Below are positions 4,211 through 28,786 of a stretch of 36,263 nt of DNA, one piece after another; the stretch's first letter is position 1, and every line of letters begins with the position of its first letter. The translations under genes were made by a program, and so were the position numbers. The stretch spans positions 1-36,263 of the forward strand of contig JAPOKK010000008.1 of NCBI GenBank assembly GCA_029977665.1, read 5' to 3'. The DNA is from Pseudomonadota bacterium. GTDB taxonomy: Bacteria; Pseudomonadota; Gammaproteobacteria; Ga0077536. The notes beneath the pieces are model-generated. The model worked only from the letters and a program-made list of their open reading frames with translations, was not told where the DNA came from and ran no database searches.

Positions 4211-5473
4211 TCACGCGTTCCAAGGCACCAGGCGTACCGGGAGCTCGGAGTAGCCCATGATGATGTTGGAGCGGACCCGCACCGGGTCACCCACCACCTC
4301 CACCATGCGGAAGCGCTCGAGGATCTCTTCCCAGGCGACGCGCAATTGCAGTTCAGCCAGGCGATTGCCGACACAACGATGGATGCCGAAACCGAATGAC
4401 AGGTGGTTGCGCGGCCGCTCGCGGTCGACGATGAAATCGTTCGGGCGCTCTATCACGCGTTCGTCGCGATTGCCCGACAGGTACCACATGACCACCTTGT
4501 CGCCCGCCTGGATACGCTGCCCGCCGAGTTCTACATCCTCGAGTGCGGTGCGCTTCATGTGCGCGAGCGGCGTCTGCCAACGGATGGCCTCGGGGACGAA
4601 GCTGGCGATGAGCCCGCGATCGCGGCGAAGCTTCTCGTACTCGTCGGGGTGCTGGTTGAGCGCAAGCACGCTGCCGGTCAGGGTATTGCGGGTGGTGTCG
4701 TTGCCGCCGACGATCAGCAGCAAGACGTTGCCCATGAACTCGGCCCGGCTCATGTCGCGCGTCTCGGGTGCGCTCGCGAGCATCGACACCAGGTCGTAAC
4801 CGCCTGGCTTGCCGGTGCGCTCCCGCCACAGGCGGCTGAAATACTCGCCCATATCCTCGAGTTCGGCGCGGCGCGATTCCCAGCTTTCGACGATCCCGCT
4901 GCCGGGGACCGACACCGAGATGTCCGACCAGCGCGTGAGCATGCGTCGATCTTCGAAAGGGAAGTCGAACAAGGTCGCCAGCGTGCGCGTGGTCAGTTCG
5001 ACGGAGAAGGCATCGACCCAGTTGAACGCCTCGCCGACCGGCAGGTGATCGAGAATATCGACGCAGTTCGCGCGTATCTCGCTCTCCATCTTGCGCAGGT
5101 TCTCGGCGCCCACGGCCGGGCTCACGGCCTTGCGCGTGACGTCGTGGCGCGGCTGGTCCATCGCGATGAACATCGGCAGCTGGAATGCTTCTTCTTCGAT
5201 GAAGAACATCTCGTAACCGAGAATGTGGCCGCCGCGCGCGTGGTCCGAGGAGAACACCTTGTGGTTGGTGTCCACCGCCATGATGTCGTGGTAGCGGGTC
5301 ACCGACCAGAACGGACCGTAGTCCGATCCGGGCGTGAAATGCACCGGCGCCTCTGCCCGCAGGCGTTCGAAGTAAGGCAGCACCAGGTCGTGCTGGAAGA
5401 GATCCGGGTCGCTCATGTCGATGGCATCGAGTGGGAGGCTGTACGGATCCGAGACGGCTCTGGCAACGTTCAT
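4211..5473 (-). CDS. Cytochrome P450, CYP153 family-like (terminal hydroxylase)
   Basis: A soluble class I bacterial P450 of 420 residues. CYP153 enzymes hydroxylate terminal carbons of medium-chain alkanes, fatty acids or related alicyclic compounds. Signature regions match that family: PFWSVTRYHDI (54-64), FIAMDQPRHDVTR (102-114), the I-helix LLLIVGGNDTTRN (251-263), the ExxR pair Glu295/Arg298 in EAIRWQTPLAHMKR, GDKVVMWYLSGNRDER (324-339), and the heme loop FGFGIHRCVGNRLAELQL with Cys367 as thiolate ligand. The start ATG at 5471-5473 is preceded by GGAGAAC at good spacing; upstream in-frame codons are not conserved. It is the first gene of the operon with ferredoxin, membrane protein and two crotonases, and is divergent from an AraC regulator, the usual CYP153 arrangement. 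Exact substrate is not predictable. Confidence 0.93.
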   Translation of the reverse strand: MNVARAVSDPYSLPLDAIDMSDPDLFQHDLVLPYFERLRAEAPVHFTPGSDYGPFWSVTRYHDIMAVDTNHKVFSSDHARGGHILGYEMFFIEEEAFQLPMFIAMDQPRHDVTRKAVSPAVGAENLRKMESEIRANCVDILDHLPVGEAFNWVDAFSVELTTRTLATLFDFPFEDRRMLTRWSDISVSVPGSGIVESWESRRAELEDMGEYFSRLWRERTGKPGGYDLVSMLASAPETRDMSRAEFMGNVLLLIVGGNDTTRNTLTGSVLALNQHPDEYEKLRRDRGLIASFVPEAIRWQTPLAHMKRTALEDVELGGQRIQAGDKVVMWYLSGNRDERVIERPNDFIVDRERPRNHLSFGFGIHRCVGNRLAELQLRVAWEEILERFRMVEVVGDPVRVRSNIIMGYSELPVRLVPWNA

Positions 5474-5557
5474 GCGTTGTTCTCCGGCTGACGGTGGCTG
5501 CGCGGCGCCGGCGTGCCCGGCGGAACATGCATGCAAACTACCGTGGCGCCGGCATCC

Positions 5558-5599
5558 GGGCTTGTCCGCCAGGGAACGGGGGCTTGTCTGGGAGCGAAC
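5558..5599 (+). promoter_or_regulatory. Tandem AraC-type operator candidate
   Basis: Two 20-bp units, GGGCTTGTCCGCCAGGGAAC (5558-5577) and GGGCTTGTCTGGGAGCGAAC (5580-5599), match at 16 of 20 positions with identical first nine bases. Their offset is 22 bp, two helical turns, as is usual for the two half-sites bound by an AraC-family dimer. They lie in the 241-bp space between the divergent P450 operon and the araC-like gene. Binding by the adjacent regulator is inference. Confidence 0.65.
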
Positions 5600-5611
5600 T
5601 CGCGCAAGTTC
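5596..5611. promoter_or_regulatory. 16-bp near-palindrome in the P450/AraC intergenic region
   Basis: GAACTCGCGCAAGTTC reads the same on both strands at 14 of 16 positions, with perfect 5-bp ends. It overlaps the last bases of the second direct-repeat unit and could be a second regulatory site. It could also be chance in GC-rich DNA. Confidence 0.4.
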
Positions 5612-5714
5612 CCGCCGCCGCACGAGGCGGTCCGTTGTGCGATAAGAATGGACAACTGCCGGCGCTTTGCTGCCATTATTCCGATTGCCGCCGACGGCTT
5701 GGAGAGTAAAGCAC

Positions 5715-6656
5715 ATGAACGCGAGCGAATTGAGTGGACTGCGCAAGATTGGCGGTGCCGAGCTTAGCCATACGATCAGCGCGGCTCACCTGTCGTGGTG
5801 CTTCGACCCTGCCCAAACCCGGCGGCTGGAGGCCAGCCTGGCGCTGCGCAGTCTGGGCGCGCTACGCCTGGCCCGGGTTCGCGTGACCGAATGGAGCGGC
5901 CGGCGCTCAACGCGCGAGATTCGCGCGAACCCGGAACCCTACCTCACCGTCCTGATGCCTTTGCGCGGCTCAATCGAGCTGGCTTCCGAACAGGGATCTC
6001 AACGCGTTGGAAAACACGAACTGGGGATCTGGGACAGCACCCGGCCGATGTCTTTCGCGATCGGGCGCACGAGCCTGGAAATGCTCTCGGTGCTCGTACC
6101 GCAGCGCCTTCTGCGTGCGAGCCGCTCCGACTGCGCCGGTCAACACTGCTCACGGATCGGCCGTGACAACGTCCTGTCCGAGTTATGCGTTCGGCATATG
6201 ACCACGCTCGCTCGCTTTCTCGACGACGAGCTACGGCCCTATGAGCTCACGATCAGCGACCTCACCACAAGCATCTTCGATGCATTACTCGCAGGCGAGC
6301 GCGGCGGCCTGCGCGATCGGCACCGGCTGCTGGCCGATATCAAGGAATACATCGAGTGCTATATCGTCGAAGACACACTGTCGGCCGCGACCATTGCTGA
6401 CGCTTTCGACATCACGCCACGCTACGTCCATAAACTGTTCGAGCCAGGGGGCTGCTCGGTACGGGACTGGATCCTGCGCCGGCGCGTGGAACGCAGTACT
6501 AGCGATCTCGAGCAGAGCCGGGACAGCGTGACGACCATTGCGTACAAGTGGGGATTCAAGGATCTCGGGCATTACAGCCGGGTATTCCGGCGCGTATTCG
6601 GACTCCCGCCAAGCACCTGGCGTCTCTCGCGCGCGAGCCGCAACAGCGTACCGTGA
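5715..6656 (+). CDS. AraC-family transcriptional regulator of the P450 operon
   Basis: A 313-residue regulator. The N-terminal part (about 1-180) resembles the AraC-binding-like domain, with the block EPYLTVLMPLRGSIEL followed by GKHELGIWDSTRPMSF. The C-terminal 100 residues are the paired helix-turn-helix DNA-binding domain: first HTH around LSAATIADAFDITPRYVHKLF, second around SVTTIAYKWGFKDLGHYSRVFRRVFG, the conserved second-helix signature. The start at 5715-5717 is chosen because GGAGAG lies about 10 nt upstream and the preceding in-frame codons lack similarity. It is divergent from the CYP153 gene, an arrangement known for CYP153 loci, so it probably activates that operon when substrate or product is present. 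Its last 101 bp are antisense to the 3' end of the large propeller gene. Confidence 0.92.
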   Translation: MNASELSGLRKIGGAELSHTISAAHLSWCFDPAQTRRLEASLALRSLGALRLARVRVTEWSGRRSTREIRANPEPYLTVLMPLRGSIELASEQGSQRVGKHELGIWDSTRPMSFAIGRTSLEMLSVLVPQRLLRASRSDCAGQHCSRIGRDNVLSELCVRHMTTLARFLDDELRPYELTISDLTTSIFDALLAGERGGLRDRHRLLADIKEYIECYIVEDTLSAATIADAFDITPRYVHKLFEPGGCSVRDWILRRRVERSTSDLEQSRDSVTTIAYKWGFKDLGHYSRVFRRVFGLPPSTWRLSRASRNSVP

Positions 6657-9600
6657 CAGCGAGCAAGGCGATTACCAGCGCCGGTAACATCCACACCGGC
6701 AGCGGAACCGGTATCGCCGGCCCCGCTTCCAGCAGCGGTGACGGATCGACACCGTCAACCAGGCCATCGCCATCGGTATCCGGGTTGTTCGGATCGGTAT
6801 CGATTCCAGCCGTGTAATCGGAGGGATCGCCGTCCATTGCGACCTCCTGCAGATCGCTCAGCCCGTCGTCGTCGGTATCGAACAGGTAGGTGTGGGTTCC
6901 AAGGACATGCTCAAGCTGATTATCGAGCCCGTCGCCATCGATGTCGGGATCGCTGCCGTCGACGATCGCGTCGCCGTCCTGGTCCACGGCGACGTGAAAC
7001 AAGCGGAAATCACCAACGATATCCTGATCGGCCCGATAGACGGCGCGCGCGCCGTCCGGTGTCAACACGAACTTGTCGACGCGGCCGCCCGAAACCACCG
7101 GCGCATTCAAGTGCACCGGTGCCACCCCGCCGGTGATCGGTACGCTATAGAGCGCATCTGCGCCGTCGCCATAGTTGGCCACGTAGACAAGGCGGCTGCC
7201 GTCGGCCGTGATGGCGAGCTGCGCGATACCGGTCAACGGACCGGCGCCCGGCGGCGGCCGTGTCAGGAGCACGGGGACGCCACCCGCGACAGGCACGCTG
7301 TAGGCGCCGGCGATCGCGCTTTGCTGGTTCAGCTGCCGCCCGAGCAGGTAGACAACCCGGGCGCTATCCGGGGTAAGCGCGAAACCCAGCACCTCGTTGT
7401 CACCTGATGCGACGTTGAGTTTGACCGCTGCCTGCGCCCCATCGATCGGTACGCTGTAGAGTTCGGTCCGGTCCCACGTGTCCTGGTCGGCCAGGTAGAC
7501 CACGCGTGTGCCGTCCGGGGTCGGGGCGAACGTCTCCACGTCGCCGTTCTCCACGAGCGTCGCGCTGAGCTTGACCGCTGCGCCACCACTGAAGCGCACG
7601 CTGTACAGCTCGGTGACACCATCGATGTCCTGGTCGGCCAGGTAAACGAGCCGTTGACCGCCGGGCGAAGCAGCGACGGCCAGGCTGCCGGCCTGGCCGC
7701 CGGCGACGAGCGCAGCGTTCAACTTCAGTGGCGGCGCGCTCCCGTCGATCGGCACCCGATAGATCTCGTTGACCCCGACGACGTCCTGATCACCGCTGTA
7801 AATCACCGTGAAGCCGTCTGGCGCTATCGCGACGAAACCGATGTTGCCGCCGGCGGGCAATGGCGCGTTCAAGCGCAGCGGCGTGCCTCCTCCTGCGATC
7901 GGCACGCTGAACAGCTCTCGCGGACTCGTCCCGTCTACGCGAGCCAGGAACAGTGCGCGACTGGAATCGGGCGTGATCGGTGTGCCGCTGAAAACGTCTC
8001 CGCCGGTGCCGAGCACCTGGTTCAGCTTGTAAGCGGACGAGGACCCGTCGATCGGTGCCGCATACAACTCTTCCACGTGGGGGCTGTCCTGCGCGGCGCC
8101 GTAGAGCACCCGGCTGCTGTCAGGTGCGATCTCGAACCCCTGGACGATCCCTCCCTGCGGCAACGGGGGATTCAGCTGAGCGACCGTGCCTCCGGCGGTC
8201 GGCGCGCTGAACAGGTTGACCGGCGCGTCCGCGTCGCTGCGTGCGCGGTAGACCACGCGTGTGCCGTCCGGACTGATGCTCACCGTCGAGAAGATCTTGC
8301 CTGTTCGTGGCAACGGCGCACTTATGCGTAACGAGGCTGCGCTTGCATCGAGCGGCACGCTGAATACTTCGTCTAGCCCGTCGACGATTTCGTCGGCAAG
8401 GTAGACGGCCCGGCGACCGTCCGGGGTGATCAGAATCTCGGTGCTGACGCTGCCACCGGTGACAAGGTCGCCGGACAGGCGCGTGTCCCCGCCGGCAGCG
8501 TCCAGCGCGGCGACGAAGAGCTCCGGCACACCCGGCGACCTCTGGTCCGCGAGGTATACGACGTGGCCGGTCAGGCTGGCCGATGAGAAGGAGTCAACGC
8601 CCCACGCGGCGTCCCCGAAACCGCCGTTGAGTTTGACCGCAGCGCTCGTGCCGTCGACCGGCGCGCTGTACAGTTCGTGCGGACTGCCACCGTCATCGTT
8701 CGTCCGATAGATCACGCGCGTGCCATCGGCAGAAAGCGCGAACGAAGCGTGTACATAGCCGCCCGGCTGGAGCGCCCCGTTCAGGGTCACCGGCGCACCG
8801 CCGGCAGTGCCGACGCTGAACAGATCGTAGCGGTCCCGCTCGTTGCCGTTCGCGCCGTAGACCAGGCGGGAGCCGTCAGGTGTGAAGCGGAAACCGGCAA
8901 TCGATACGCTGCCTCCAGCGGGCAGAGGACCGTTCAGCTTGGTGGGTGTGCGACTGCCGTCCACGGCCGCGAGATAGAACTCCTCGCGGTTGTCGACGTC
9001 CTGGTCGGCGCGATACACCACGCTGGTACCGTCCGGGCTCAGCGCGAAGCGGCTGACGTCGCCGCGGTTGACCAGAGGGCCGTTGATGCGCACCGGCGCC
9101 GCGCTGCCGTCCACCGGAACCGAGTACAACTCGATGACGTCGTTGATCGCATGATCGGCGCGGTAGACCACGCGCCGGCCGTCGGCGCTGAAGCGAAATC
9201 CGTCGCCGTACTGGTAGGTCAGCTCGGCGAGCACATCGCCGCCGGCCGGTGGTGTCGGAGTGAGCCTGGTCGCCGCACCGCTGCCGTCGGCCGCAACGAC
9301 GTAGAGCTCGAACACCTCGTCGATGTCCTGGTCGGCCCGGTAGACGACGGTGGCACCATCCGGACTTACCTGGAACCCGACATCGGGATTGACCAGGTTG
9401 CCGTCGGCAGTGCTGCCGCCCGCGACGAGCGTGCCGTTGAGCTTGACCGGCTCGCTCCCCTCGGCGGCCGGCACGCTGTAGAGCTCGATCTTGTCGAGCG
9501 CGTCCTTGTTGGCGCGAAAGAACACGCGCGAACCGTCCGGTCCAACCACGAAGTTCGGGATCACGCCGCCGCCGCTCGTCATCGTCCCGCTGAGCTTGCT

Positions 9601-10161
9601 TGGTTGCTGTGCGCCGTCTACCGCCGCGACGTACAGGGCGTCCGATGCGGCGCCGTCCTGGTTGGCGCGATAGATGACACGCGCCGAATCCGGCGTGAAC
9701 CGGTACTCGGCGACGCGGCAAGCGAAACCCGCGCATGCGCCGGGGACGAACGCCGGATTCAATCTGCGCGCCGGCGCCGCACCGTCAATCGGGACACTGT
9801 AGAGTTCCTCGATCCCGTCCGTGTCCTGATCGCCGACGAACGCAACACGGGTACCGTCCGGACTGATCACGAAAGAGATCACGTCCGCAGCAGCGTGTGC
9901 CGGCTTATCGAGGCGTGTCGAGACGCCTGGATTCGCCAACATCACGCTGTACAGTCCTCGCTCGCCGTCGATATCTTCGTCGGCGATGTAGACCGCCCGC
10001 GTGTGATCGGGCGTGACGGCATAGCGGAACACCTGCCCTGTCGCCGTTTGAAAACCGGGCGTGAGGGCGAGCACTTCGCGCGCCGCGGCGGGGGCGGCGA
10101 GTACGCTCACGAGCGTCCACGCCAACAGCGCCGCGGCGATCGGCATGGCTGGATCGCGCAT
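6556..10161 (-). CDS. Large secreted PD40/TolB-like propeller-repeat protein with C-terminal anchor
   Basis: A 1,201-residue protein. Residues 1-27 form a signal peptide (PIAAALLAWTLVSVLAAPAAA). The body is about 20 tandem repeats of roughly 50 residues, consensus PDGtrVVYrADQDxdgxxELYSVPvDGsxxxxKLNgpLxxGGdV, the pattern of PD40 blades in TolB-type beta-propellers, enough for about three propellers. Residues about 1060-1147 are rich in DxDGDGLxD motifs like thrombospondin type 3 or calcium-binding repeats (DPDIDGDGLDN, DTDDDGLSDLQE, NNPDTDGDGLVDG). A hydrophobic segment (about 1155-1171) after a PVPLP motif looks like a CTERM-type anchor. Unusually, 30 further residues follow it (about 1172-1201), encoded antisense to the end of the AraC gene. 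Expected location is the cell surface or outer face of a membrane. Function and ligand are unknown. No strong ribosome binding site is seen for ATG 10159-10161; ATG 10144-10146 is an alternative. Confidence 0.88.
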   Translation of the reverse strand: MRDPAMPIAAALLAWTLVSVLAAPAAAREVLALTPGFQTATGQVFRYAVTPDHTRAVYIADEDIDGERGLYSVMLANPGVSTRLDKPAHAAADVISFVISPDGTRVAFVGDQDTDGIEELYSVPIDGAAPARRLNPAFVPGACAGFACRVAEYRFTPDSARVIYRANQDGAASDALYVAAVDGAQQPSKLSGTMTSGGGVIPNFVVGPDGSRVFFRANKDALDKIELYSVPAAEGSEPVKLNGTLVAGGSTADGNLVNPDVGFQVSPDGATVVYRADQDIDEVFELYVVAADGSGAATRLTPTPPAGGDVLAELTYQYGDGFRFSADGRRVVYRADHAINDVIELYSVPVDGSAAPVRINGPLVNRGDVSRFALSPDGTSVVYRADQDVDNREEFYLAAVDGSRTPTKLNGPLPAGGSVSIAGFRFTPDGSRLVYGANGNERDRYDLFSVGTAGGAPVTLNGALQPGGYVHASFALSADGTRVIYRTNDDGGSPHELYSAPVDGTSAAVKLNGGFGDAAWGVDSFSSASLTGHVVYLADQRSPGVPELFVAALDAAGGDTRLSGDLVTGGSVSTEILITPDGRRAVYLADEIVDGLDEVFSVPLDASAASLRISAPLPRTGKIFSTVSISPDGTRVVYRARSDADAPVNLFSAPTAGGTVAQLNPPLPQGGIVQGFEIAPDSSRVLYGAAQDSPHVEELYAAPIDGSSSAYKLNQVLGTGGDVFSGTPITPDSSRALFLARVDGTSPRELFSVPIAGGGTPLRLNAPLPAGGNIGFVAIAPDGFTVIYSGDQDVVGVNEIYRVPIDGSAPPLKLNAALVAGGQAGSLAVAASPGGQRLVYLADQDIDGVTELYSVRFSGGAAVKLSATLVENGDVETFAPTPDGTRVVYLADQDTWDRTELYSVPIDGAQAAVKLNVASGDNEVLGFALTPDSARVVYLLGRQLNQQSAIAGAYSVPVAGGVPVLLTRPPPGAGPLTGIAQLAITADGSRLVYVANYGDGADALYSVPITGGVAPVHLNAPVVSGGRVDKFVLTPDGARAVYRADQDIVGDFRLFHVAVDQDGDAIVDGSDPDIDGDGLDNQLEHVLGTHTYLFDTDDDGLSDLQEVAMDGDPSDYTAGIDTDPNNPDTDGDGLVDGVDPSPLLEAGPAIPVPLPVWMLPALVIALLAVTVRCCGSRARDARCLAGVRIRAGIPGCNARDP
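6700..10020 (-). repeat. About 20 tandem ~150-bp coding repeats
   Basis: The propeller gene is internally repetitive at DNA level: each roughly 145-180 bp unit carries a variant of the codons for VVYRADQD, ELYSVPVDG and KLN. Units are diverged rather than identical, so recent unequal crossover is not evident. Unit lengths vary because loops of 0-10 residues are inserted between blades. Confidence 0.75.
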
Positions 10162-19696: not shown

Positions 19697-20704
19697 TCAG
19701 AGCTCGATGACGATCTTGCCGAAGTGCCCCGCAGCCTGCATGCAATGAAATGCTTCGCGGGCCTCGGCCAGCGGAAAGCGCCGGTCGATGACGGGCTCGA
19801 GTCCGTTCACGCCGAATGCCGCATTCATGTTCTCGAACATCTCGCGGCTGCCAACATAGATACCCTGCACATCGACGCTCTTGAACAATACGGGCATGGG
19901 ATCGACGGTGTTCTCGAAGCCGGTCAGGACGCCGATCAGCCAGACGTGGCCGCCGAACGCAGTGGCGTTGATGGACTTCGCCAACGTACCCGAGCCGCCC
20001 ACCTCGACGACGTGATCGACGCCGCGGCCGCCGGTCAGTTCGAGCACCGCCTGGTCCCACTCCGGCACGTCACGGTAGTTGATGGTGTCGTCGGCGCCGA
20101 GCGCGCGCGCACGCTCGAGCTTGGCATCGCTGCTCGAGGTCAGGATGACGCGCGCACCGTGCATCTTCGCGATCTGCAGCGCGAACAGCGAGACACCGCC
20201 GGTACCGAGTACGAGCACCGTCTCACCGGCCATCACGCGTCCCTTGGCAACGAGCGCATGCCACGCGGTCAGCGCCGCGCACGGCAGCGTCGCCGCCTGG
20301 GCGGTCGTCCAGCCGCGCGGCACGTGCACCGCGCCCTCCTCGTGCAGGCACACGTACTCAGCGAGCATGCCCTGCTCGCGCCCACCGAGCGCGGACTCCA
20401 TGACCTCGGCGGTGATACGCCCGGCAGGCCAGCGTTGGAAGAACGTACCGGCGACCTGGTCGCCGGCCTTGAAACGCGTCACGGACGGCCCCACGGCAAC
20501 CACTTCGCCGGCTCCGTCTGAGCAGGGCACGAGCGGCCAGCGGTCCTGGTCGACCACGCCCAGCACATGCAGCAGGTCGCGATAATTGAGCGAGACGGCG
20601 GCGACGCGCACGACGATGTCATGGGCACCTGGTTCCGGCACCGCGCGCGTCACGGGGACGAGGGCATCGATACCGCCGTCGGTCTGGATCTCCCAGGCAT
20701 TCAT
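19697..20704 (-). CDS. MDR-superfamily zinc-free NAD(P)-dependent oxidoreductase
   Basis: A 335-residue medium-chain dehydrogenase/reductase. The N-terminal GroES-like domain covers about 1-125 (VVRVAAVSLNYRDLLHVLG), and the Rossmann domain holds the nucleotide motif VLVLGTGGVSLFALQIAK (163-180). The catalytic zinc cysteine position reads NYRD rather than CxxD, and the structural-zinc cysteines are absent, so it resembles the quinone oxidoreductase-like or zinc-free alcohol dehydrogenase-like branch. ATG 20702-20704 has AAGGAG 8 nt upstream; the track-style longer start is not supported. It is divergent from the alpha/beta hydrolase-LLM genes, across a region with a 7-bp inverted repeat, and may oxidise an alcohol or reduce an enone in the same pathway. 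Confidence 0.9.
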   Translation of the reverse strand: MNAWEIQTDGGIDALVPVTRAVPEPGAHDIVVRVAAVSLNYRDLLHVLGVVDQDRWPLVPCSDGAGEVVAVGPSVTRFKAGDQVAGTFFQRWPAGRITAEVMESALGGREQGMLAEYVCLHEEGAVHVPRGWTTAQAATLPCAALTAWHALVAKGRVMAGETVLVLGTGGVSLFALQIAKMHGARVILTSSSDAKLERARALGADDTINYRDVPEWDQAVLELTGGRGVDHVVEVGGSGTLAKSINATAFGGHVWLIGVLTGFENTVDPMPVLFKSVDVQGIYVGSREMFENMNAAFGVNGLEPVIDRRFPLAEAREAFHCMQAAGHFGKIVIEL

Positions 20705-20914
20705 GCGATGGACTCCTTGGCTGCGGGGAGCGCGATTATGGCTCGCACAGGGCAGACACGAAAGCGCACGCGGCGGCGTACGTCGCGAGGCCGGAAGATG
20801 CGGAGACAACCTCATGAACCTCCTCGCGCCGGAGCGTCGATGCCCAGGAAGCGCGCTGCCGCACCCACAGCCGTCCGACACGCACCCGACCCGGCAGTCA
20901 CGCGGCGTGCACCG

Positions 20915-20937
20915 CGCATGTACGCTGATAACATGCG
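20915..20937. promoter_or_regulatory. Inverted repeat operator candidate before the hydrolase-LLM operon
   Basis: CGCATGT (20915-20921), a 9-bp spacer, and ACATGCG (20931-20937) form perfect 7-bp arms. It ends 11 bp before the AAGGAGGT ribosome binding site of the hydrolase gene. A TetR- or GntR-type dimer could bind; no such regulator is in the window. Confidence 0.5.
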
Positions 20938-20963
20938 ATGCGGTTCCCAAGGAGGTCTTTTCA

Positions 20964-21794
20964 ATGAGCTTCATCCCCGCGTTCGAACACACGGACGTGC
21001 CCCGCCCGGCGCGCTATTACACAGAGCCCGCTTTCGAGGACGTGCTGGGCCTGCCCATGGCCTATCGTCGTGACGGCTCAGGCGAAGCGACTGTCCTGCT
21101 GCACGGCGCCGGCTTCACCCGCATGTGGATCCCGTTCTACGCCATGCTTGCCGAGCGGCTCGACTTCATCGCTCCGGAAGCGCCTGGCTTTGGCGAGACA
21201 CCGTTGCCGTCATGGCTGCGCAGCTTCGACGACCTGACCATTCTTCATGACCAGTTGTTCGAACAGCTGGGGCTCGAGAAGATTCATCTGATCGGTTTCT
21301 CAATGGGTGGCTGGGCGGCGTCCGAGTTTGCCGCTTTCTATCCACGCCGCCTCAAGTCGCTGACCCTGATCACGCCGGTCGGTCTGCGTCTCGAGGACGA
21401 ACCCGGCGTCGACATCTTCCAGCTCTCGCCGCCCGACCTCATGGACCGACTGTTCAAAGACAAGACTGTCATGCAGGAATGGCTGCCGGACCCGGAGAAC
21501 TTCGATGAGGGCGTGCACCTGTATGCCGAGTTCTCGGCCGCGGCACGCCTGATGTGGGCGCCGCGCTATAACCTCGCGCTGGAGCGCCGCCTCAAGCGGC
21601 TGACCTGCCCGGCGCTCGTCATCGGCGCCGAAGAAGACCGCCTCGTACCGAACGCGATGTCCGACAAGTTCGCCGAGGTCCTGCCCGGAGGGCGCCTCGT
21701 ACGCATTCCCGGCACCGGTCACGAGCCGCTGCTCGAACGCCCACGCGAGCTCGCCGACCACATCATCGAATTCATCACGGAGGTCGCGCAATGA
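20964..21794 (+). CDS. Alpha/beta hydrolase
   Basis: A 276-residue cytosolic hydrolase. The catalytic triad is visible: nucleophile Ser113 in GFSMGG, Asp225 in EEDRLVP and His253 in GTGHEPLLE. The oxyanion HG is in VLLHGAGFTRMW (44-55). A cap region of about 60 residues follows strand 6. The ribosome binding site AAGGAGGT (20949-20956) is near-consensus with 7-nt spacing, suggesting strong translation. Its stop overlaps the LLM start (ATGA). A hydrolase coupled to a flavin monooxygenase is the expected arrangement for lactone or ester cleavage after oxygen insertion; meta-cleavage C-C hydrolases are a second option. Substrate unknown. Confidence 0.9.
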   Translation: MSFIPAFEHTDVPRPARYYTEPAFEDVLGLPMAYRRDGSGEATVLLHGAGFTRMWIPFYAMLAERLDFIAPEAPGFGETPLPSWLRSFDDLTILHDQLFEQLGLEKIHLIGFSMGGWAASEFAAFYPRRLKSLTLITPVGLRLEDEPGVDIFQLSPPDLMDRLFKDKTVMQEWLPDPENFDEGVHLYAEFSAAARLMWAPRYNLALERRLKRLTCPALVIGAEEDRLVPNAMSDKFAEVLPGGRLVRIPGTGHEPLLERPRELADHIIEFITEVAQ

Positions 21795-23149
21795 ACAAGC
21801 TGCGCTTCTATGCATTTCACCTGATGCCCTACCCGTATTTCCCGCCGGCGGAAGAGATCGAGTCGAGCTGGGTATCGCTGTCGAACAAGTACTACGACCC
21901 GCATCGCGGTCGCGTGCTCTACAACGAGTACATCGACCAGCTCGTGGCAGCCGAGAAGTTCGGTTACGACGGCGTCGGTGTCAACGAGCACCACGCCAAC
22001 TTCTACGGCACCATGCCCTCGCCCAACATCATTGCGGCGATGCTGGTTCAGCGCACGACGCAGATCCCGATTGGCGTCATCGGCAATGCCATCCCGCTAC
22101 ATGGCAATCCGCTGCGCGTGGCGGAGGAGATCGCGATGCTCGATGTCATTTCGGGCGGCCGCATCATCTCGGGTTTCGTACGCGGCATCGGCTGCGAATA
22201 CTTCAACAACCCCGTCGCGCCGGCCGATTCGACCGAGCGCTTCGCCGAGGCGCATGACCTGATCATCAGGGCCTGGACCGACGAAGGCCCCTTCACCTGG
22301 CAAGGTGACCACTTCTACGTGCCGAACGTGAACATCATTCCCAAGTGTATTCAACAGCCGCACCCGCCGATCTGGATTCCGGGACAGGGCTCGCTCGAAA
22401 CGCTGCAGTTCATCGCCAGGCATCGCTACACGTACATGATGGTGTTCTCGCCCCTGTGGTTCACCAAGATGGCTTTCGACGGCCTGCGCGAGGAATGCGC
22501 GCGGCTCGGTTACGAGGCGGACAAGAACATGTTCAACGCCTGCGTGCCGACCTACGTGGCCGAAACCGATGCCCAGGCTCACCGCGAAGCCAAGGCCCAC
22601 CTGTCGTGGGTGTTCAACACCGGGCTCAAGATCCCGGATCAGTTCTTCTTTCCGCCCGGCTACATGTCCAACAAGTCGTTCCGCAACTTCATGACGCAGT
22701 TGCAGAAGGGCAAGGTCAAGCCGCAGGCCCAGCTCAGTTATGACGAACTGCTGAAGGACCGCTACATCATCGTCGGCTCGCCGGAAACGGTGAAGAACCA
22801 GCTCGGCGAGTACGTCGAAGCGGTCGGCGCAGGCGGCATGATCGGCGCAGGCTCACCGTTCGGGCCGATGCCCAACTGGATGGTGATGAAGAACATGCAG
22901 TTGTACGCCGAGGAAGTGATCCCCGAGTTCCGCGAGGCGGACGGATTGCCCGACTACCAGCGTACCGCGCCGAATTCACCGCGTTCGCATGCAGCGCTGG
23001 CGGCACAACGTGGAAGTCCGCCCGAAGCCGCTCGCTCGCGCGTGACAGGCGGCATGGAACTCGTCGATCACCGCCTCTCGCATGTTGCCGAAGTCATCGA
23101 CCCGACGATGGCAGGCGGCGGCAGCGGGCGCGAAGCGTCGGCAGGCTGA
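21791..23149 (+). CDS. LLM-class (luciferase-like) flavin-dependent monooxygenase
   Basis: A 452-residue TIM-barrel flavoprotein of the bacterial luciferase family that uses reduced flavin and oxygen. Family blocks: AAEKFGYDGVGVNEHHANFY (about 53-72), PIGVIGNAIPLHGNPLRVAE (about 93-112), EIAMLDVISGGRIISGFVRG (about 113-132), and HPPIWIPGQGS (about 191-201). The last 55-60 residues, from about DYQRTAPNSP, are Ala/Gly/Ser/Arg-rich and not part of the fold, an unusual tail. It is translationally coupled to the alpha/beta hydrolase. No flavin reductase is seen in the window. It could be a type II Baeyer-Villiger-like oxygenase or another FMNH2-dependent enzyme. Confidence 0.9.
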   Translation: MNKLRFYAFHLMPYPYFPPAEEIESSWVSLSNKYYDPHRGRVLYNEYIDQLVAAEKFGYDGVGVNEHHANFYGTMPSPNIIAAMLVQRTTQIPIGVIGNAIPLHGNPLRVAEEIAMLDVISGGRIISGFVRGIGCEYFNNPVAPADSTERFAEAHDLIIRAWTDEGPFTWQGDHFYVPNVNIIPKCIQQPHPPIWIPGQGSLETLQFIARHRYTYMMVFSPLWFTKMAFDGLREECARLGYEADKNMFNACVPTYVAETDAQAHREAKAHLSWVFNTGLKIPDQFFFPPGYMSNKSFRNFMTQLQKGKVKPQAQLSYDELLKDRYIIVGSPETVKNQLGEYVEAVGAGGMIGAGSPFGPMPNWMVMKNMQLYAEEVIPEFREADGLPDYQRTAPNSPRSHAALAAQRGSPPEAARSRVTGGMELVDHRLSHVAEVIDPTMAGGGSGREASAG

Positions 23150-23466
23150 ACGCGCTGCTGTACCACCATTCGGCGGCCCGGGGACCGTTGCGCTGAGCAT
23201 ACCTGCGTCACCATGACGCGCAGCAATGGCCGGGCCACCATCACCGCCTGCCCGGCGCTACCCCGAGTTCCCGGGCACTTCGAGCGGGATTACGGGCCGC
23301 GAGCGTCCGGCAGGGCCGGGCCATGTCCCCGACGCGGCTATGCACGGAATCGCGGCACTCGGCGCTGCAGTACGCGGTATCGCGCCGCGGCGATGCAACG
23401 CCGGGCCACTCCACCGCACAGAACAGCAGGTTCAGAGCGCTTCACCAGTACGGGAGAATGAACAAC
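23150..23466. other. Gene-less 317-bp stretch
   Basis: No convincing gene. One perfect inverted repeat, GCGTCA-CCA-TGACGC at 23205-23219, could be an operator or weak terminator after the LLM gene. An open frame from 23323 runs into the next gene, but its first 48 codons look random, so I treat them as noncoding. GGGAGA at 23452-23457 is the likely ribosome binding site of the next gene. Confidence 0.45.
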
Positions 23467-24858
23467 ATGAACACCATCGAGACGGATTACCTGGTCGTCG
23501 GCGCCGGCGCCGCCGGCATGGCGTTTGTCGATACCCTTATCGGCCAGGGCGATGCCGATGTCGTGATGGTCGACCGGCGCCACGCCCCGGGCGGCCACTG
23601 GCACGATGCCTATCCCTTCGTGCGCCTGCACCAGCCGTCCGCAACCTACGGCGTGGATTCGCGGCCGCTCGGGGGCGACACGCGCGACGCCCTGGGCTCC
23701 GACGCCGGCTTCTACGAGCGCGCGACGGCCGCGGAGATCTGCGGTTACTACCGGAAGGTCATAGACGAAGTGCTACTGCCCTCGGGCCGGGTACGTTTCT
23801 TGGCGATGCACGACTACGCGGGCGACTTCGCGACTGAGAATGTGATCACCTCGAGGCTGACCGGCAGCCGATCCCGAGTGCACGTGCGACGCAAGGTCGT
23901 TGATACGACCTACCTCGAAGTCTCGGTGCCGGCGACGCACGAGCCGTCGTTCGCGATCGACGCGGACGTGCGCTTCATGCCGGTCGGCGGCATCGTGCAC
24001 CTCGACGAGGCACCCAGCGGTTACACCATCCTCGGCGGCGGCAAGACCGCCATGGATGCGTGTTACTGGTTGATGGAGCACGGTGTCGCGCCAGAGCGCA
24101 TCCGCTGGATCCGCCCGCGCGATTCCTGGGTGCTGCCCCGCACGTGCTTTCAACCGCGCGACCTGGTCGGACCGACGCTCGCGGTGTTCGCCGATGCCCT
24201 CGACATCCTGGCCCGGGCAACGAGTGTCGATGACCTCTACCAGCGCCTCGAGAATGCCGGCCTCGCGCGGCGATTCGATCGGAGCGTGACACCGACCATG
24301 TTCCGTGGCGCCATCCTGAGCGAGGCGGAATGCGACGCCCTGGAGCGGATCGACAACGTCGTCCGCCTCGGACGCATCCGTCGGCTCAGCACCGAGCGCA
24401 TCGTCCTCGAGCACGGCGAGCTGCCCAACGATCCGCGCCAGGTGCACATCGATTGCACGGCGAGTGCCTTCAAGGTCAATCCCGAGCGCCCGATCTTCGA
24501 ACCCGGGCGCATCACCATCCAGGGCCTGGTCGGCGGTTTCACGAGCTTTTCCGCTGCCACCATCGGATTCGTCGAAGCGACGCGCAGCGACGATGCGGAG
24601 AAGAACCGCCTGTGCAGGCCGACGCGCACGCTGAACGAGCCAAGCGACTGGATTCGCGCCTACCGCGGCATGATCCACACCAACATCATGAACGCGACCG
24701 ATCCGGACATGGCTGCCTGGCTCGAGCGCACGCGGCTCAACATCACGAGCGGGCTGGCCAGGTTCGAGAGCGACCCACAAGTGCAAGGCGCCCTGACCCG
24801 CATCGCCGAACTCGCCGAACCCGCCCGTAGCAACGCCGACCGACTCCTCGCGTCCTGA
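23467..24858 (+). CDS. FAD-dependent monooxygenase-like flavoprotein
   Basis: A 463-residue two-dinucleotide-binding flavoprotein. FAD site: YLVVGAGAAGMAFVDTLI (8-25, GxGxxG) with VVMVDRRHAPGGHWHDAYPF after it. A second nucleotide site: GYTILGGGKTAMDACYWL (185-202). This is the layout of flavin-containing monooxygenases and related NAD(P)H-dependent hydroxylases, but I do not find the FxGxxxHxxxW fingerprint of type I Baeyer-Villiger enzymes, so the reaction is open. ATG 23467-23469 is preferred; ATG 23458-23460 is in frame but sits only 1-2 nt from GGGAG. It lies between the LLM gene and the Old Yellow Enzyme gene, on the same strand. Confidence 0.85.
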   Translation: MNTIETDYLVVGAGAAGMAFVDTLIGQGDADVVMVDRRHAPGGHWHDAYPFVRLHQPSATYGVDSRPLGGDTRDALGSDAGFYERATAAEICGYYRKVIDEVLLPSGRVRFLAMHDYAGDFATENVITSRLTGSRSRVHVRRKVVDTTYLEVSVPATHEPSFAIDADVRFMPVGGIVHLDEAPSGYTILGGGKTAMDACYWLMEHGVAPERIRWIRPRDSWVLPRTCFQPRDLVGPTLAVFADALDILARATSVDDLYQRLENAGLARRFDRSVTPTMFRGAILSEAECDALERIDNVVRLGRIRRLSTERIVLEHGELPNDPRQVHIDCTASAFKVNPERPIFEPGRITIQGLVGGFTSFSAATIGFVEATRSDDAEKNRLCRPTRTLNEPSDWIRAYRGMIHTNIMNATDPDMAAWLERTRLNITSGLARFESDPQVQGALTRIAELAEPARSNADRLLAS

Positions 24859-25074
24859 ACGGTGCGCCGGTACCCGTGTCGCCGTGCCCAGCCCCGGCGG
24901 TTGCCTGCCGCGCAACGGCCTGATAGCGTCCCGCGGCGCCGCCCATCGCATGCGCGGCCGCACAGCCACGACGTCTTCTGCGTGCATTCGTGCCGACGGT
25001 GCCAAATCCGAACGATGGAATCGCGCCACGGCCGCCGCACGGCAACCCGTAATCGAATTTCAAGGTAGTAATTC

Positions 25075-26190
25075 ATGAGTGCTTTGTTCACGCCCCTCTC
25101 CTTCAACCGCGGTCCGACCATGAAGAATCGCTTCATGCTCGCACCACTGACCAACCAGCAGAGCCACGAGGACGGCACCTGCTCCGAAGGGGAGCATCGC
25201 TGGCTGACCATGCGTGCCGAGGGTGGGTTCGGCCTCACGATGACCTGTGCGGCACACGTCCAGGCCGAGGGCAAGGGCTTCCCGGGGCAGCTCGGGATCT
25301 TCTCCGACGATCACCTCCCCGGCCTGACGCGCCTGGCGAAGGCCATCAAGAGCCACGGTAGTATCGCGAGCGTGCAGCTCTACCACGGCGGCATGCGCTG
25401 CCCCAAGGACGTGATCGGCATGCAGCCGCTGTGTCCGTCGGACAACGACAAGTGGGGTGCGCGGGCGATGGCCACTGCCGAGGTCGAAGCGATGATCGAG
25501 GCGTTCATCGTGGCCGCCCAGCGCGCCGAGCGCGCCGGTTTCGACGGCGTCGAACTGCACGGGGCGCACGGCTACATCCTGGCCCAGTTCCTCTCGCCCG
25601 AGGTCAACCAGCGCGATGACCAGTTCGGCGGTTCACTCGAGAACCGCCAGCGCCCGCTGCTGCAGATCATCGACGGCATCCGTGCGCGCTGCGGCAAGGA
25701 CTTCCAGCTCGGCGTGCGCCTCTCGCCCGAGCGTTTCGGCATGCACCTGCCGGAAATCGTGAGCCTCGCCGGGCATCTCATGGGCAACGAACTCGTCGAG
25801 TATCTCGACATGTCGATGTGGGACGTCTTCAAGCAGCCCGAGGACGAAGCCGCCGGGGGGCGCAGCCTGCTCTCCTACTTCACCAGCCTCGATCGCAAGG
25901 GCGTGCGTCTCGGCGTCGCGGGTAAGCTGCGCACACCGGCGGACGTCGAACGTGCCATGGACGAGGGCGTGGACTGGGTCATGCTCGGTCGTGCCGCCAT
26001 CCTGCACCACGACTTCCCCAACCGCATGCAGTTCGACGCGAACTTCACCCCGGTGGAGCTGCCGGTCACGCCGGCGCACCTCACGGCGGAGGGCTTGAGC
26101 CCGCCCTTCGTCGAGTACATGAAGAACTGGAAGGGCTTCGTTGCCGGCACCGAGGGCGTGGTCGATACCGCGCTCATCCTGAACAGCTGA
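25075..26190 (+). CDS. NADH:flavin oxidoreductase / Old Yellow Enzyme family ene-reductase
   Basis: A 371-residue FMN-dependent TIM-barrel enzyme that reduces activated C=C bonds (enones, enals, nitro-alkenes). Motifs: NRFMLAPLTNQQSHEDG (18-34), QLYHGGMRC (101-109), the signature GVELHGAHGYILAQFLSPEV then NQRDDQFGGSLENRQRPLL, and the phosphate-binding end VMLGRAAI. It lacks the C-terminal iron-sulfur and Rossmann domains of the dienoyl-CoA reductase type, so it is a classic OYE. ATG 25075-25077; AAGG is 9 nt upstream. 216 bp of noncoding DNA separate it from the FAD-monooxygenase gene, but strand and theme fit one pathway. In alicyclic terpenoid catabolism such an enzyme saturates the ring before oxygen insertion. 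Confidence 0.93.
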   Translation: MSALFTPLSFNRGPTMKNRFMLAPLTNQQSHEDGTCSEGEHRWLTMRAEGGFGLTMTCAAHVQAEGKGFPGQLGIFSDDHLPGLTRLAKAIKSHGSIASVQLYHGGMRCPKDVIGMQPLCPSDNDKWGARAMATAEVEAMIEAFIVAAQRAERAGFDGVELHGAHGYILAQFLSPEVNQRDDQFGGSLENRQRPLLQIIDGIRARCGKDFQLGVRLSPERFGMHLPEIVSLAGHLMGNELVEYLDMSMWDVFKQPEDEAAGGRSLLSYFTSLDRKGVRLGVAGKLRTPADVERAMDEGVDWVMLGRAAILHHDFPNRMQFDANFTPVELPVTPAHLTAEGLSPPFVEYMKNWKGFVAGTEGVVDTALILNS

Positions 26191-26208
26191 CGAAGCCCGG
26201 CCTGGCCA

Positions 26209-26234
26209 GGCTCCTGCGCGCCGCCGCAGGGGCC
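26209..26234. terminator. Hairpin between convergent OYE and MarR genes
   Basis: A 10-bp stem with one G-U pair, GGCTCCTGCG (26209-26218) with CGCAGGGGCC (26225-26234), and a 6-nt loop. It lies 19 bp after the OYE stop, in the 123 bp between two convergent genes. There is no U-tract. A bidirectional transcription stop is plausible. Confidence 0.45.
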
Positions 26235-26313
26235 TGGCGCCGTCGGCGCAAGAGCCGGTCTCCGCGCCTTGCGTTCGTGACGACACGCCCCACCGCGCGG
26301 CAACCCGCCGCAC

Positions 26314-26802
26314 TCAGTCCTCGAAGCCGTCGACGATGCGCTCGATGCTGCGGAAGAACTCGAGCCCGTTGACGATCTCCGCACCGCTCATGTGATCGAT
26401 GATGCGCTGCACGTAGGCCGTGCCGCGCGCGATCATCGCCTCGATATGCGCTTCACCGCGCGGCGTCAGGCGCACGATCTTTTCGCGCCCCGAACGCGGA
26501 TCCTCTTCAAGGCGCACGAGTTCGAGCGGCGACGCCGACATGCCGCGGATGGCCTTGGTGATGGCAGCGCCGGAGACCTCGAACCACTGTCGCAGCGAAC
26601 GCTCGATGGCCTTGCGGTTCATGGCGCGGCGACCCTCGCCCTCGGAATGGATCAGCCAGAGGATGGCGACCTGGTGACGGCCGAGTTCGCCGCCGCGCAG
26701 CGCATCTTCGACGCCGATGCCCGCCTTGTAGTGGATCGGGTAATAGAGTTCGAGGAACAGCCGCGCGGCGTCTGCGGGCGGACTGAATGGGGGTTTGGGC
26801 AC
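26314..26802 (-). CDS. MarR-family transcriptional regulator
   Basis: A 162-residue winged-helix regulator. HTH and wing: LGRHQVAILWLIHSEGEG, then FEVSGAAITKAIRGMSASPL, then the wing LVRLEEDPRSGREKIVRLTP and the MarR-typical RGEAHIEAM helix. The chain begins with GTG at 26800-26802, without a good ribosome binding site. It is divergent from the second P450 across 127 bp that include an AT-rich palindrome, so it probably represses that operon and is relieved by an aromatic or lipophilic ligand, as MarR proteins usually are. Ligand unknown. Confidence 0.88.
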   Translation of the reverse strand: MPKPPFSPPADAARLFLELYYPIHYKAGIGVEDALRGGELGRHQVAILWLIHSEGEGRRAMNRKAIERSLRQWFEVSGAAITKAIRGMSASPLELVRLEEDPRSGREKIVRLTPRGEAHIEAMIARGTAYVQRIIDHMSGAEIVNGLEFFRSIERIVDGFED

Positions 26803-26867
26803 GCGCGCGGCACCGTCAATGGATGGTGGCGAGCAGTTTAACCGCCGTGCTTTATCAAGGATAACTA

Positions 26868-26880
26868 TTTACTTAGTAAA
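26868..26880. promoter_or_regulatory. MarR operator candidate
   Basis: TTTACTTAGTAAA is a perfect 6-1-6 palindrome in the most AT-rich patch of the window (about 26852-26898), 49 bp before the P450 start. MarR proteins bind such AT-rich dyads over promoters. A weak -35/-10 pair, TTTACT then TATTGA at 26891-26896 with 17-bp spacing, would place the operator on the -35 element of the P450 promoter. Confidence 0.6.
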
Positions 26881-26929
26881 TTATTTAGTTTATTGATCTT
26901 GTCCCTGGTGAATCAAACAGGCGACGATC

Positions 26930-28162
26930 ATGACCGAAACCGAGCAACTGGTAACCGCGCTGCCGCGGCCGGAAACCATCGTCGATCCCTACCCGCTCTA
27001 CCAGCGCTTGCGACGCCATACACCCGCCTGGGGCTACCGCGACTATCCTCCCGGCACGGTGCCGGATGCCGACGAGCCAGTTACCGCCTGGGTGCTGATG
27101 AAGTACGCCGAGGTCGTCGCCGCGGCACGCGACCACGATACGTTCTCCTCGCGCGATCCCCTGCAGGAGAGTTCCTCCGCGCCGACCCTCATGCTGGTCA
27201 ACCACGACAACCCGGAGCACGATCGCCTGCGCGGCATCGTCGCCCTGGCCTTCTCGCGCAAACGCATCCTGGCACTGGAGGAATGGTTGAACGGCATCGT
27301 CGGCGAGATGCTGGTGGCGCTGCCGGGTGGCGAGTGTGAGGCGGTCGGCACCATCACCTCGGTGATCCCGGCACGCGCCATGCTGCGCCTGTTCGGCCTG
27401 CCGGATGCGGATGCGGAACGGTGCCGCCGCTGGGCCACGGCATTCATGCTCTCGGCCGCGCTGAGCCCCGCCGAGCGCGAAGCCAGCAATCGCGAGCTTG
27501 CGGCCTACTTCGCCGACAAGGTCGGCGCGGCGGCCGCCGCCCGCGCCGCGGGTGCGCCGCCTGCCGATGGGCTGATCGCCGCGCTCCTCGACGCCGAGCA
27601 GGACGGTGAGCGCCTTAGCCTGGAGGAAGTCATTCGTTTCTGCGTGACGCTCATCGTCGCCGGTGCCGAGACCACCACCTTCCTGCTCGCCAACCTGCTC
27701 CATTACCTCGCGACCCTGCCGGGCATGTTCGACACGCTCGCCGCCGACCGCGGGCTTCTCGAGCGTTTCATCGACGAGGCCTTGCGGCACGGCGGGCCGC
27801 CGCAACGCCTGTTCCGCATTGCCACGCGGGACGTCGAGGTGGGAGACAAACACATCGCCGCCGGCGACTGGGTCGCGCTGTTCTTCGCCGCCGCCAATCA
27901 CGACCCGGCCGTGTTCCCCGATCCAGCGCGTTTCGACCTCGACCGGCCCAACCTGCGCCAGCAGCTCAGCTTCGGCTATGGCCTGCATCATTGCCTGGGT
28001 TTCGCGCTCGCGCGTCTGGAAGCGCGCGCCATGCTCAACGCCGTGCTCGACCGTTATGCCGCCGTCACGCTCGGGCCAACACCGCCGCGACGCCAGCGCG
28101 CCAGCCTGCTGACCTGCGGCTTCGACAGCCTGCACCTCGTCTTCACGCCGCGCGCGGCCTGA
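26930..28162 (+). CDS. Cytochrome P450 (second, not CYP153)
   Basis: A 410-residue soluble bacterial P450. I-helix [14 protein letters not shown] (244-257) with acid-alcohol pair Glu247-Thr248, ExxR Glu283/Arg286 in [14 protein letters not shown], and heme loop [20 protein letters not shown] with Cys355 as thiolate. It is clearly a different family from the CYP153-like enzyme (no GGNDTTRN, different heme loop). It has no ferredoxin or reductase gene beside it; the ferredoxin at 3853-4176 could serve both. It is followed 15 bp later by a SnoaL-like gene and is divergent from the MarR regulator. An Ala-rich loop (about 199-209) is longer than usual. Substrate unknown; hydroxylation of a ring or side chain is likely. 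Confidence 0.92.
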
Positions 28163-28177
28163 CCCGGAGACCCGACC

Positions 28178-28573
28178 ATGAACAACATCGAAACGACCCA
28201 GGCGATCTTCGCCGCGTTCGGCGCCGGCGACATCCCTGCCATCCTCGAACACCTCGCCGATGACATCGTCATCGAATTCTACGGGCCCGCGCCCATTCCT
28301 TATGCCGGCACCTGGCGGAGCCACGCCGAAGCGCGGCGCTTCTTCGAAACGGTGCTGTCGTCGGTGCGCATCAACCAGTTCGATCCCGAAGAGTTTCTTG
28401 CCGATGCCGACAAGGTCATCGTCACGGGACACCTGAACCTGGTCGCGCTCACAACCGGCCGCACCATCGACTCCGATTTCGTGCACGTCATCACGCTCAG
28501 CGAGGGCCAATGGACGCGCTTCCGCGACTTCATGAACACGGCCGTCGCTGCTGCCGCGTTCACGGTGGGGTGA
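28178..28573 (+). CDS. SnoaL-like / ketosteroid isomerase-fold protein
   Basis: A 131-residue protein of the SnoaL/NTF2-like fold. N-terminal NNIETTQAIFAAFGAGDIPA, then ILEHLADDIVIEFYGPAPIP and AGTWRSHAEARRFFETVLSS fit the common pattern for this group (limonene epoxide hydrolase/SnoaL-type). It begins 15 bp after the P450 stop with GGAGA about 9 nt before ATG, so it is cotranscribed. Members may isomerise, cyclise or hydrate small ring compounds; this one may act on the P450 product (inference). It is one of three NTF2-like proteins in the window. Confidence 0.85.
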   Translation: MNNIETTQAIFAAFGAGDIPAILEHLADDIVIEFYGPAPIPYAGTWRSHAEARRFFETVLSSVRINQFDPEEFLADADKVIVTGHLNLVALTTGRTIDSDFVHVITLSEGQWTRFRDFMNTAVAAAAFTVG

Positions 28574-28594
28574 TCCCGCATCCCGGCAGTCGTA

Positions 28595-28614
28595 CGCGGC
28601 GTCGAGACGCCGCG
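28595..28614 (+). terminator. Hairpin after the P450-SnoaL operon
   Basis: CGCGGCGTC (28595-28603) and GACGCCGCG (28606-28614) form a perfect inverted repeat, with a short loop when folded. It begins 22 bp after the SnoaL-like stop. There is no long U-tract (GTCGTT follows). A probable transcription end before the convergent DUF2306 gene. Confidence 0.55.
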
Positions 28615-28786
28615 GTCGTTCCCGTGGCGGCCGTTGTGCCCGCTTTCGTTCCCGCCCTCGGAACGTTGGCGATGACCACGCGTTGACGAACCGCGCCGTA
28701 GCCCCTAGTTCCGACGTTTCGGCTGCCGGGGTCTTGCAGGGCTCCGCGTGCGGCCACCCTGCGCGCCCCCGTTCGACGGCATCGAC

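Follow-up and report, generated by a model that had tools for sequence, protein, structure and literature searches.

An exported gammaproteobacterial protein of twenty PD40-type blades, best read as two tandem rings of ten

The locus and the parts of the encoded protein

The window, i.e. the whole stretch of DNA that was analysed (36,263 nucleotides of contig JAPOKK010000008.1, from a gammaproteobacterial assembly), contains a reading frame of 1201 aa with an ATG start (6556-10161, -). The frame is genuine, not spurious. Its translation matches PD40 in Pfam with E = 4.9e-28 (96.9 bits against a curated cut-off of 20.9), and no second domain of comparable strength was found there. A blade HMM, derived from this protein and five relatives, detected exactly 20 blades with a spacing of 49-60 aa and a period of about 50 aa. 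Likewise, an HMM of the B-C hairpin recovered 19 blades and one 104-residue gap, giving 20 in total, so that the count of about 20 TolB/PD40-like blades in the first-pass annotation is confirmed by both models. Within each blade the strands follow the order A (F.ISPDG), B (VVY.AD), C (ELYSVP) and D (KLN).

The N-terminus is hydrophobic and resembles a signal peptide (residues 1-27; 10081-10161, -) ending in AAPAAA, with cleavage before REV as judged from sequence composition, in agreement with the export proposed previously. The blade array then runs from a D strand at residue 28 to a C strand, RLFHVAVD, at residue 1060, and with these ends no strand needed for closed rings is missing. Blades 1-10 (residues 28-554; 8500-10080, -), delimited by the blade HMM and by alignment to the second half and to the relative L027 described below, constitute the proposed first ten-bladed ring; here the outer D strand (EVLALTP, residue 28) comes first and a C strand (ELFVAALD) last. 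Blades 11-20 (residues 555-1060; 6982-8499, -), delimited by identity and register relative to L027, constitute the proposed second ring.

The array is followed by an acidic stalk (residues 1061-1148; 6718-6981, -), in which four DxDxDG-type loops can be read from about residue 1060 onwards. The TSP3_bac model gives a weak match to this segment (E 2.6; 8.4 bits against a cut-off of 25), and comparison with the thrombospondin type 3 (TSP3) parts of CglD and MtsD returned E-values of 2e-5 and 1.6e-3. The earlier designation as a thrombospondin type 3-like segment is thus retained on the strength of the loops, with weak model support. Immediately downstream lies a hydrophobic segment, IPVPLPVWMLPALVIALLAVTVR... 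(residues 1150-1170, with the hydrophobic stretch itself at about 1153-1170; 6652-6714, -). CTERM models gave no match to the protein at E up to 10, and no EpsH-type exosortase was found in the source genome, in a search whose control rang in one archaeon only. Consequently, the segment is referred to as a probable membrane anchor and no more: of the CTERM-like anchor suggested at first, the hydrophobic C-terminus stands and the CTERM label is dropped.

Downstream of the anchor, a 31-residue tail containing Cys and Arg (6556-6651, -) coincides with the 3' end of an AraC-family gene that is convergent with the propeller gene (5667-6656, +). The two 3' ends overlap by 101 bases, corresponding to the last ~33 residues of the propeller protein, and the tail may have originated through loss of an earlier stop. 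The GC content of the gene region equals that of the remaining window (63-69%), hence there is no compositional sign of recent transfer. Elsewhere the window encodes two cytochromes P450, a luciferase-like monooxygenase, an Old Yellow Enzyme-type reductase and a zinc alcohol dehydrogenase (4211-5746, -, and 19697-30277), and it looks like a catabolic region.

Relatives, blade counts and tethers

Thirty-five other genomes of its family or order, one congener included, yielded no relative of the gene, and in a phylum sample of 399 genomes the source genome alone carries it. A class-wide search recovered relatives in about 2% of 369 genomes, and many paralogues occur in one proteobacterial family (f143). 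The plasmid search returned distant matches only (23-26% identity), no relative was found among the viral contigs searched, and viral predicted structures yielded generic propellers only (best TMq 0.49). In solved structures, a first-pass sequence search found no relative beyond chance and a profile search gave weak S9/DPP-IV matches only. Consistent with the earlier decision to leave the function unassigned, no close homologue of known function was found.

The protein L027 (555 aa), encoded by a Lysobacterales MAG (JANQOZ010000122.1), matched the window protein at 3e-73 in the genome scan, with 38% for the best segment. The same genome encodes two further paralogues, L055 and L056 (~555-562 aa). 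All three share the blade consensus and have ten blades, but they comprise a single ring and end with an [IL]F.DGFE-type motif instead of a stalk and anchor. A neighbouring gene in the L055 locus (5877-8714, -) encodes an exported protein of 945 aa ending in IFNSSFEGDD, which suggests a C-terminal tag shared with the [IL]F.DGFE proteins.

Ten units were counted in 14 apparently complete relatives when gaps in the B-C hairpin HMM were filled (L027, which also carries the label L054, L055, L056, L063, L064, L066, L083-L089 and L091). Six others, L057, L060, L061, L082, L090 and L094, reach ten blades only if degenerate ones recognised by eye are included, and L058 has five plus five blades with a frameshift between them. 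This last gene (4867-6572, -) is accompanied by several intact paralogues in its genome, and the split reflects either decay or an assembly error. Nine blades are found in L059, L062, L065 and probably L095, and eight or nine in L093; ten is therefore not absolute. Among the proteins counted, the window protein alone is a multiple, with 20 blades. A '1272-aa' frame in genome G414 was considered as a possible second tandem and rejected, the actual ORF being 584 aa with ten blades. L028 from Verrucomicrobia was likewise rejected as a family member, since it is a TolB-like propeller fused to an apparent aminopeptidase. In the lipoprotein L066 of genome G319 (5153-8074, -) several of the ten blades are near-identical with a 53-residue period, as in a recently amplified ring of size ten. 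At a contig end, L067 (G073:C219) is a putative Ig-like repeat protein with a few degenerate similar blades at its C-terminal end.

The means of attachment varies between relatives. Lipobox-like cysteines are present in L062, L063, L064 and L066, and the rest have C-terminal motifs. In f143 and genome G098 (L057, L060, L061, L082-L091, L093-L095) the C-termini carry two cysteines about 15 residues apart, e.g. CFPIKASNNNVAVVCL. NCBIfam returned no model for this motif in the one member scanned (L088), and it is possibly an undescribed sorting or anchoring signal. The domain order recurs in L061 (genome G177), from another proteobacterial family, in which about ten blades by eye are followed by TSP3 repeats (Pfam E 3.9e-39) and a C-terminal motif. 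L061 differs from the window protein in having one ring, and in carrying a cysteine-containing motif (CFPLKSQSGQVALICI) where the latter has its membrane span. The architecture, described as uncommon in the first-pass annotation, is thus not the main oddity; the ring size stands out instead, with blades in tens.

Ring closure and the partition of the 20 blades

Chains of the L027 type start with a D strand and end with a C strand, whereas the lipoproteins L063 and L064 of genome G247 start with B and end with A. In either case all 40 strands are present, as would be expected if a ring closes and its ends are circularly shifted, but difficult to reconcile with an open array. The fold was examined with AlphaFold2 on the natural L027 chain (residues 37-555), using a three-sequence MAFFT alignment with both halves of the window protein; the three are in register end to end. 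The resulting model had a pLDDT of 80.1 and a pTM of 0.79, and Foldseek against the PDB returned propellers at E 1e-11 to 1e-13. The ten-bladed domains of sortilin and SorCS2 gave the highest TM-scores among the matches listed (TMq 0.62-0.65, rmsd 5.8-6.6 Å over ~550 columns), whereas eight-bladed DPP-IV scored 0.46-0.49 (10-13 Å) and six-bladed TolB 0.28. DPP-IV ranks first by E-value, probably on account of greater sequence similarity between the blades; ring size was judged by global shape. On the TM-scores of this model, the ten-blade unit of L027 would form a closed ring. The whole-chain structure prediction called for by the first-pass annotation was less informative, the full-length window protein reaching a pLDDT of 34 from a single sequence, and it is for the single-ring relative that a propeller fold is modelled.

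Since the L027 model lies nearest to ten-bladed sortilin and SorCS2 and not to TolB or DPP-IV, the 20 blades of the window protein are most readily interpreted as two ten-bladed rings (1-10 and 11-20); given the low pLDDT of the full-length fold, we infer this partition from the comparisons that follow. Blades 1-10 and 11-20 are 41.5% identical over 492 aligned residues, and of the ten registers between the halves the direct one has the highest score (P 0.025, uncorrected). Blades 11-20 are 40% identical to L027 in the same register. Among the 11 consecutive ten-blade stretches of the window protein, they also match L027 best (mean 72.6), followed by the stretch starting at blade 8 (71.2). Permutation places them in register 0 with P 0.008 for L027 and 0.024 for L055, both uncorrected for ten registers, and a long B-C loop (14 vs 11) is common to blade 18 of the window protein and blade 8 of L027 and L055. 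For blades 1-10 the comparison with L027 weakly favours register 9 over register 0. Within the window protein, offset 10 is among the top offsets in blade-to-blade similarity. Together these comparisons make a good, though indirect, case for 10 + 10.

In sequence the blades are those of PD40/TolB-like propellers (PF07676; TolB, DPP-IV, tricorn), with the shared A-B-C-D order SPDG / VVY / ELYSV / KLN. Whereas TolB has six blades and DPP-IV eight, the unit of the present family is ten, doubled in the window protein, from which peptidase, TolB N-terminal and Pal-binding domains are all absent. The window protein is not itself a TolB (six-bladed, length ~430): with the TolB equivalog it reaches 47 bits, the cut-off being 405. 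The likeness of the L027 model to the Vps10p domain of sortilin and SorCS2, a ten-bladed ring with a wide channel, is one of fold size only and not of membership: sequence identity is 12-14%, and no Asp-box (S-x-D-x-G-x-T-W), strict or relaxed, was found in the window protein and 18 relatives.

Alternative readings and the proposed role

An arrangement of the 20 blades as three ordinary PD40 propellers, e.g. 7+7+6 or 8+6+6, would fit the grouping of PD40 in a hub of 5- to 8-bladed propellers (PMC3797127), and the chain has no obvious inter-ring linker. There is also precedent in the repetitive propellers of Pereira and Lupas 2022, likewise long single-chain blade arrays that split into rings, in which a 15-blade WD40 chain was modelled as 7 + 8 (PMC9218822). 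The text of that study is without PD40 or TolB and treats its larger array as combinations of 6 to 9 blades, whereas the present family is divergent and its rings are mostly of ten. We regard the three-propeller arrangement as unlikely: where a free-standing relative has regular, complete blades their number is ten or sometimes nine, not 6-8, the L027 model is far closer to sortilin than to six- or eight-bladed structures, and blade similarity at periods of 7, 6 and 8 lies below that at 10.

The suggestion in the first-pass annotation that calcium is bound at every blade through an ADQD loop, which would make the protein a calcium-dependent adhesin, draws on the D-x-D-x-D motif in the B-C loops of blades 1, 2, 5, 7 and 16 and on the TSP3-like stalk, calcium-binding by its look. 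The ADQD and RADQD motifs, stated to recur in most blades, were found in 5/20 and 3/20, respectively, and D-x-D-x-D in 5/20. Over 217 family blades the loop reads A(75%) D(72%) Q(52%) D(36%) T D(38%) ... E(79%). With the first Asp at 72% but the second and third at 36-38%, a calcium site in each blade is not maintained, and a structural role for the conserved Asp is the simpler reading; TolB-like blades carry S-x-R-x-G where this family has its acidic loop. The adhesin reading thus appears improbable, and the likely calcium site of the window protein is the stalk. Still less credible is an orphan substrate-gating propeller derived from S9/DPP-IV-type peptidases, working with a separate hydrolase such as the product of the neighbouring beta-lactamase-fold gene. 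Genes for a serine hydrolase and an M20 peptidase do lie close by on the same strand, and DPPIV_N and S9 peptidase profiles match weakly. These matches are at superfamily level and cover one to a few blades, the ring size is unlike that of DPP-IV, and the flanking P450, serine hydrolase and MFS genes are matched in related genomes that have no propeller gene, so that the linkage is not conserved.

We therefore favour, as reasonably probable, an exported and membrane-tethered binding protein composed of two tandem ten-bladed PD40-type propellers, a TSP3-like stalk rigidified by calcium and a transmembrane anchor at the C-terminus. The two toroids would close separately, each with an unusually wide central channel, and the stalk, stiffened by calcium, would be held on the cell envelope by the anchor. 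The ring would be the conserved functional unit, since relatives appear to place one ring on a lipobox, a C-terminal Cys motif, a DGFE motif or a TSP3 stalk; that a conserved ring is paired with exchangeable tethers is what chiefly argues for binding at the envelope. A peptide, protein or glycan ligand might be bound at the rim or in the channel in a sortilin-like manner, with two rings providing two sites. The likely function of this protein, presumed to be tethered to the membrane, is accordingly to bind ligands through two wide-bore rings held on the cell envelope.

Elsewhere, rings of ten have been described chiefly for the animal sorting receptor sortilin and related proteins. Sortilin was the first and only ten-bladed propeller as of 2009 (PMC2716378) and still the only known one in 2013 (PMC3797127). 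Its tunnel, 25 by 37 Å, binds ligands (PMC2716378, PMC3797127), and the cause of the rarity of such propellers has been said to be unclear. Ten blades have been suggested from sequence for RCC1-type proteins and yeast Laf1/Dgr2 (PMC2716378, PMC7760575), and a WD40 fragment of five blades failed to form a ring of ten by dimerisation, for which its authors blame strain (PMC6805158). No ten-bladed PD40 family was found in the open-access literature, an absence that is not proof. It appears somewhat probable that a bacterial PD40 lineage settled on ten-bladed rings without Asp-boxes, as a second natural single-chain lineage besides the Asp-box/Vps10 one, with the window protein as a 2 x 10 tandem on a stalk. 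Ordinary-looking bacterial blades in groups of ten, alongside a few naturally nine-bladed members, would offer a test case for what sets blade number and for the use of a wide channel, and the family may provide an easily expressed counterpart of the sortilin ring size.
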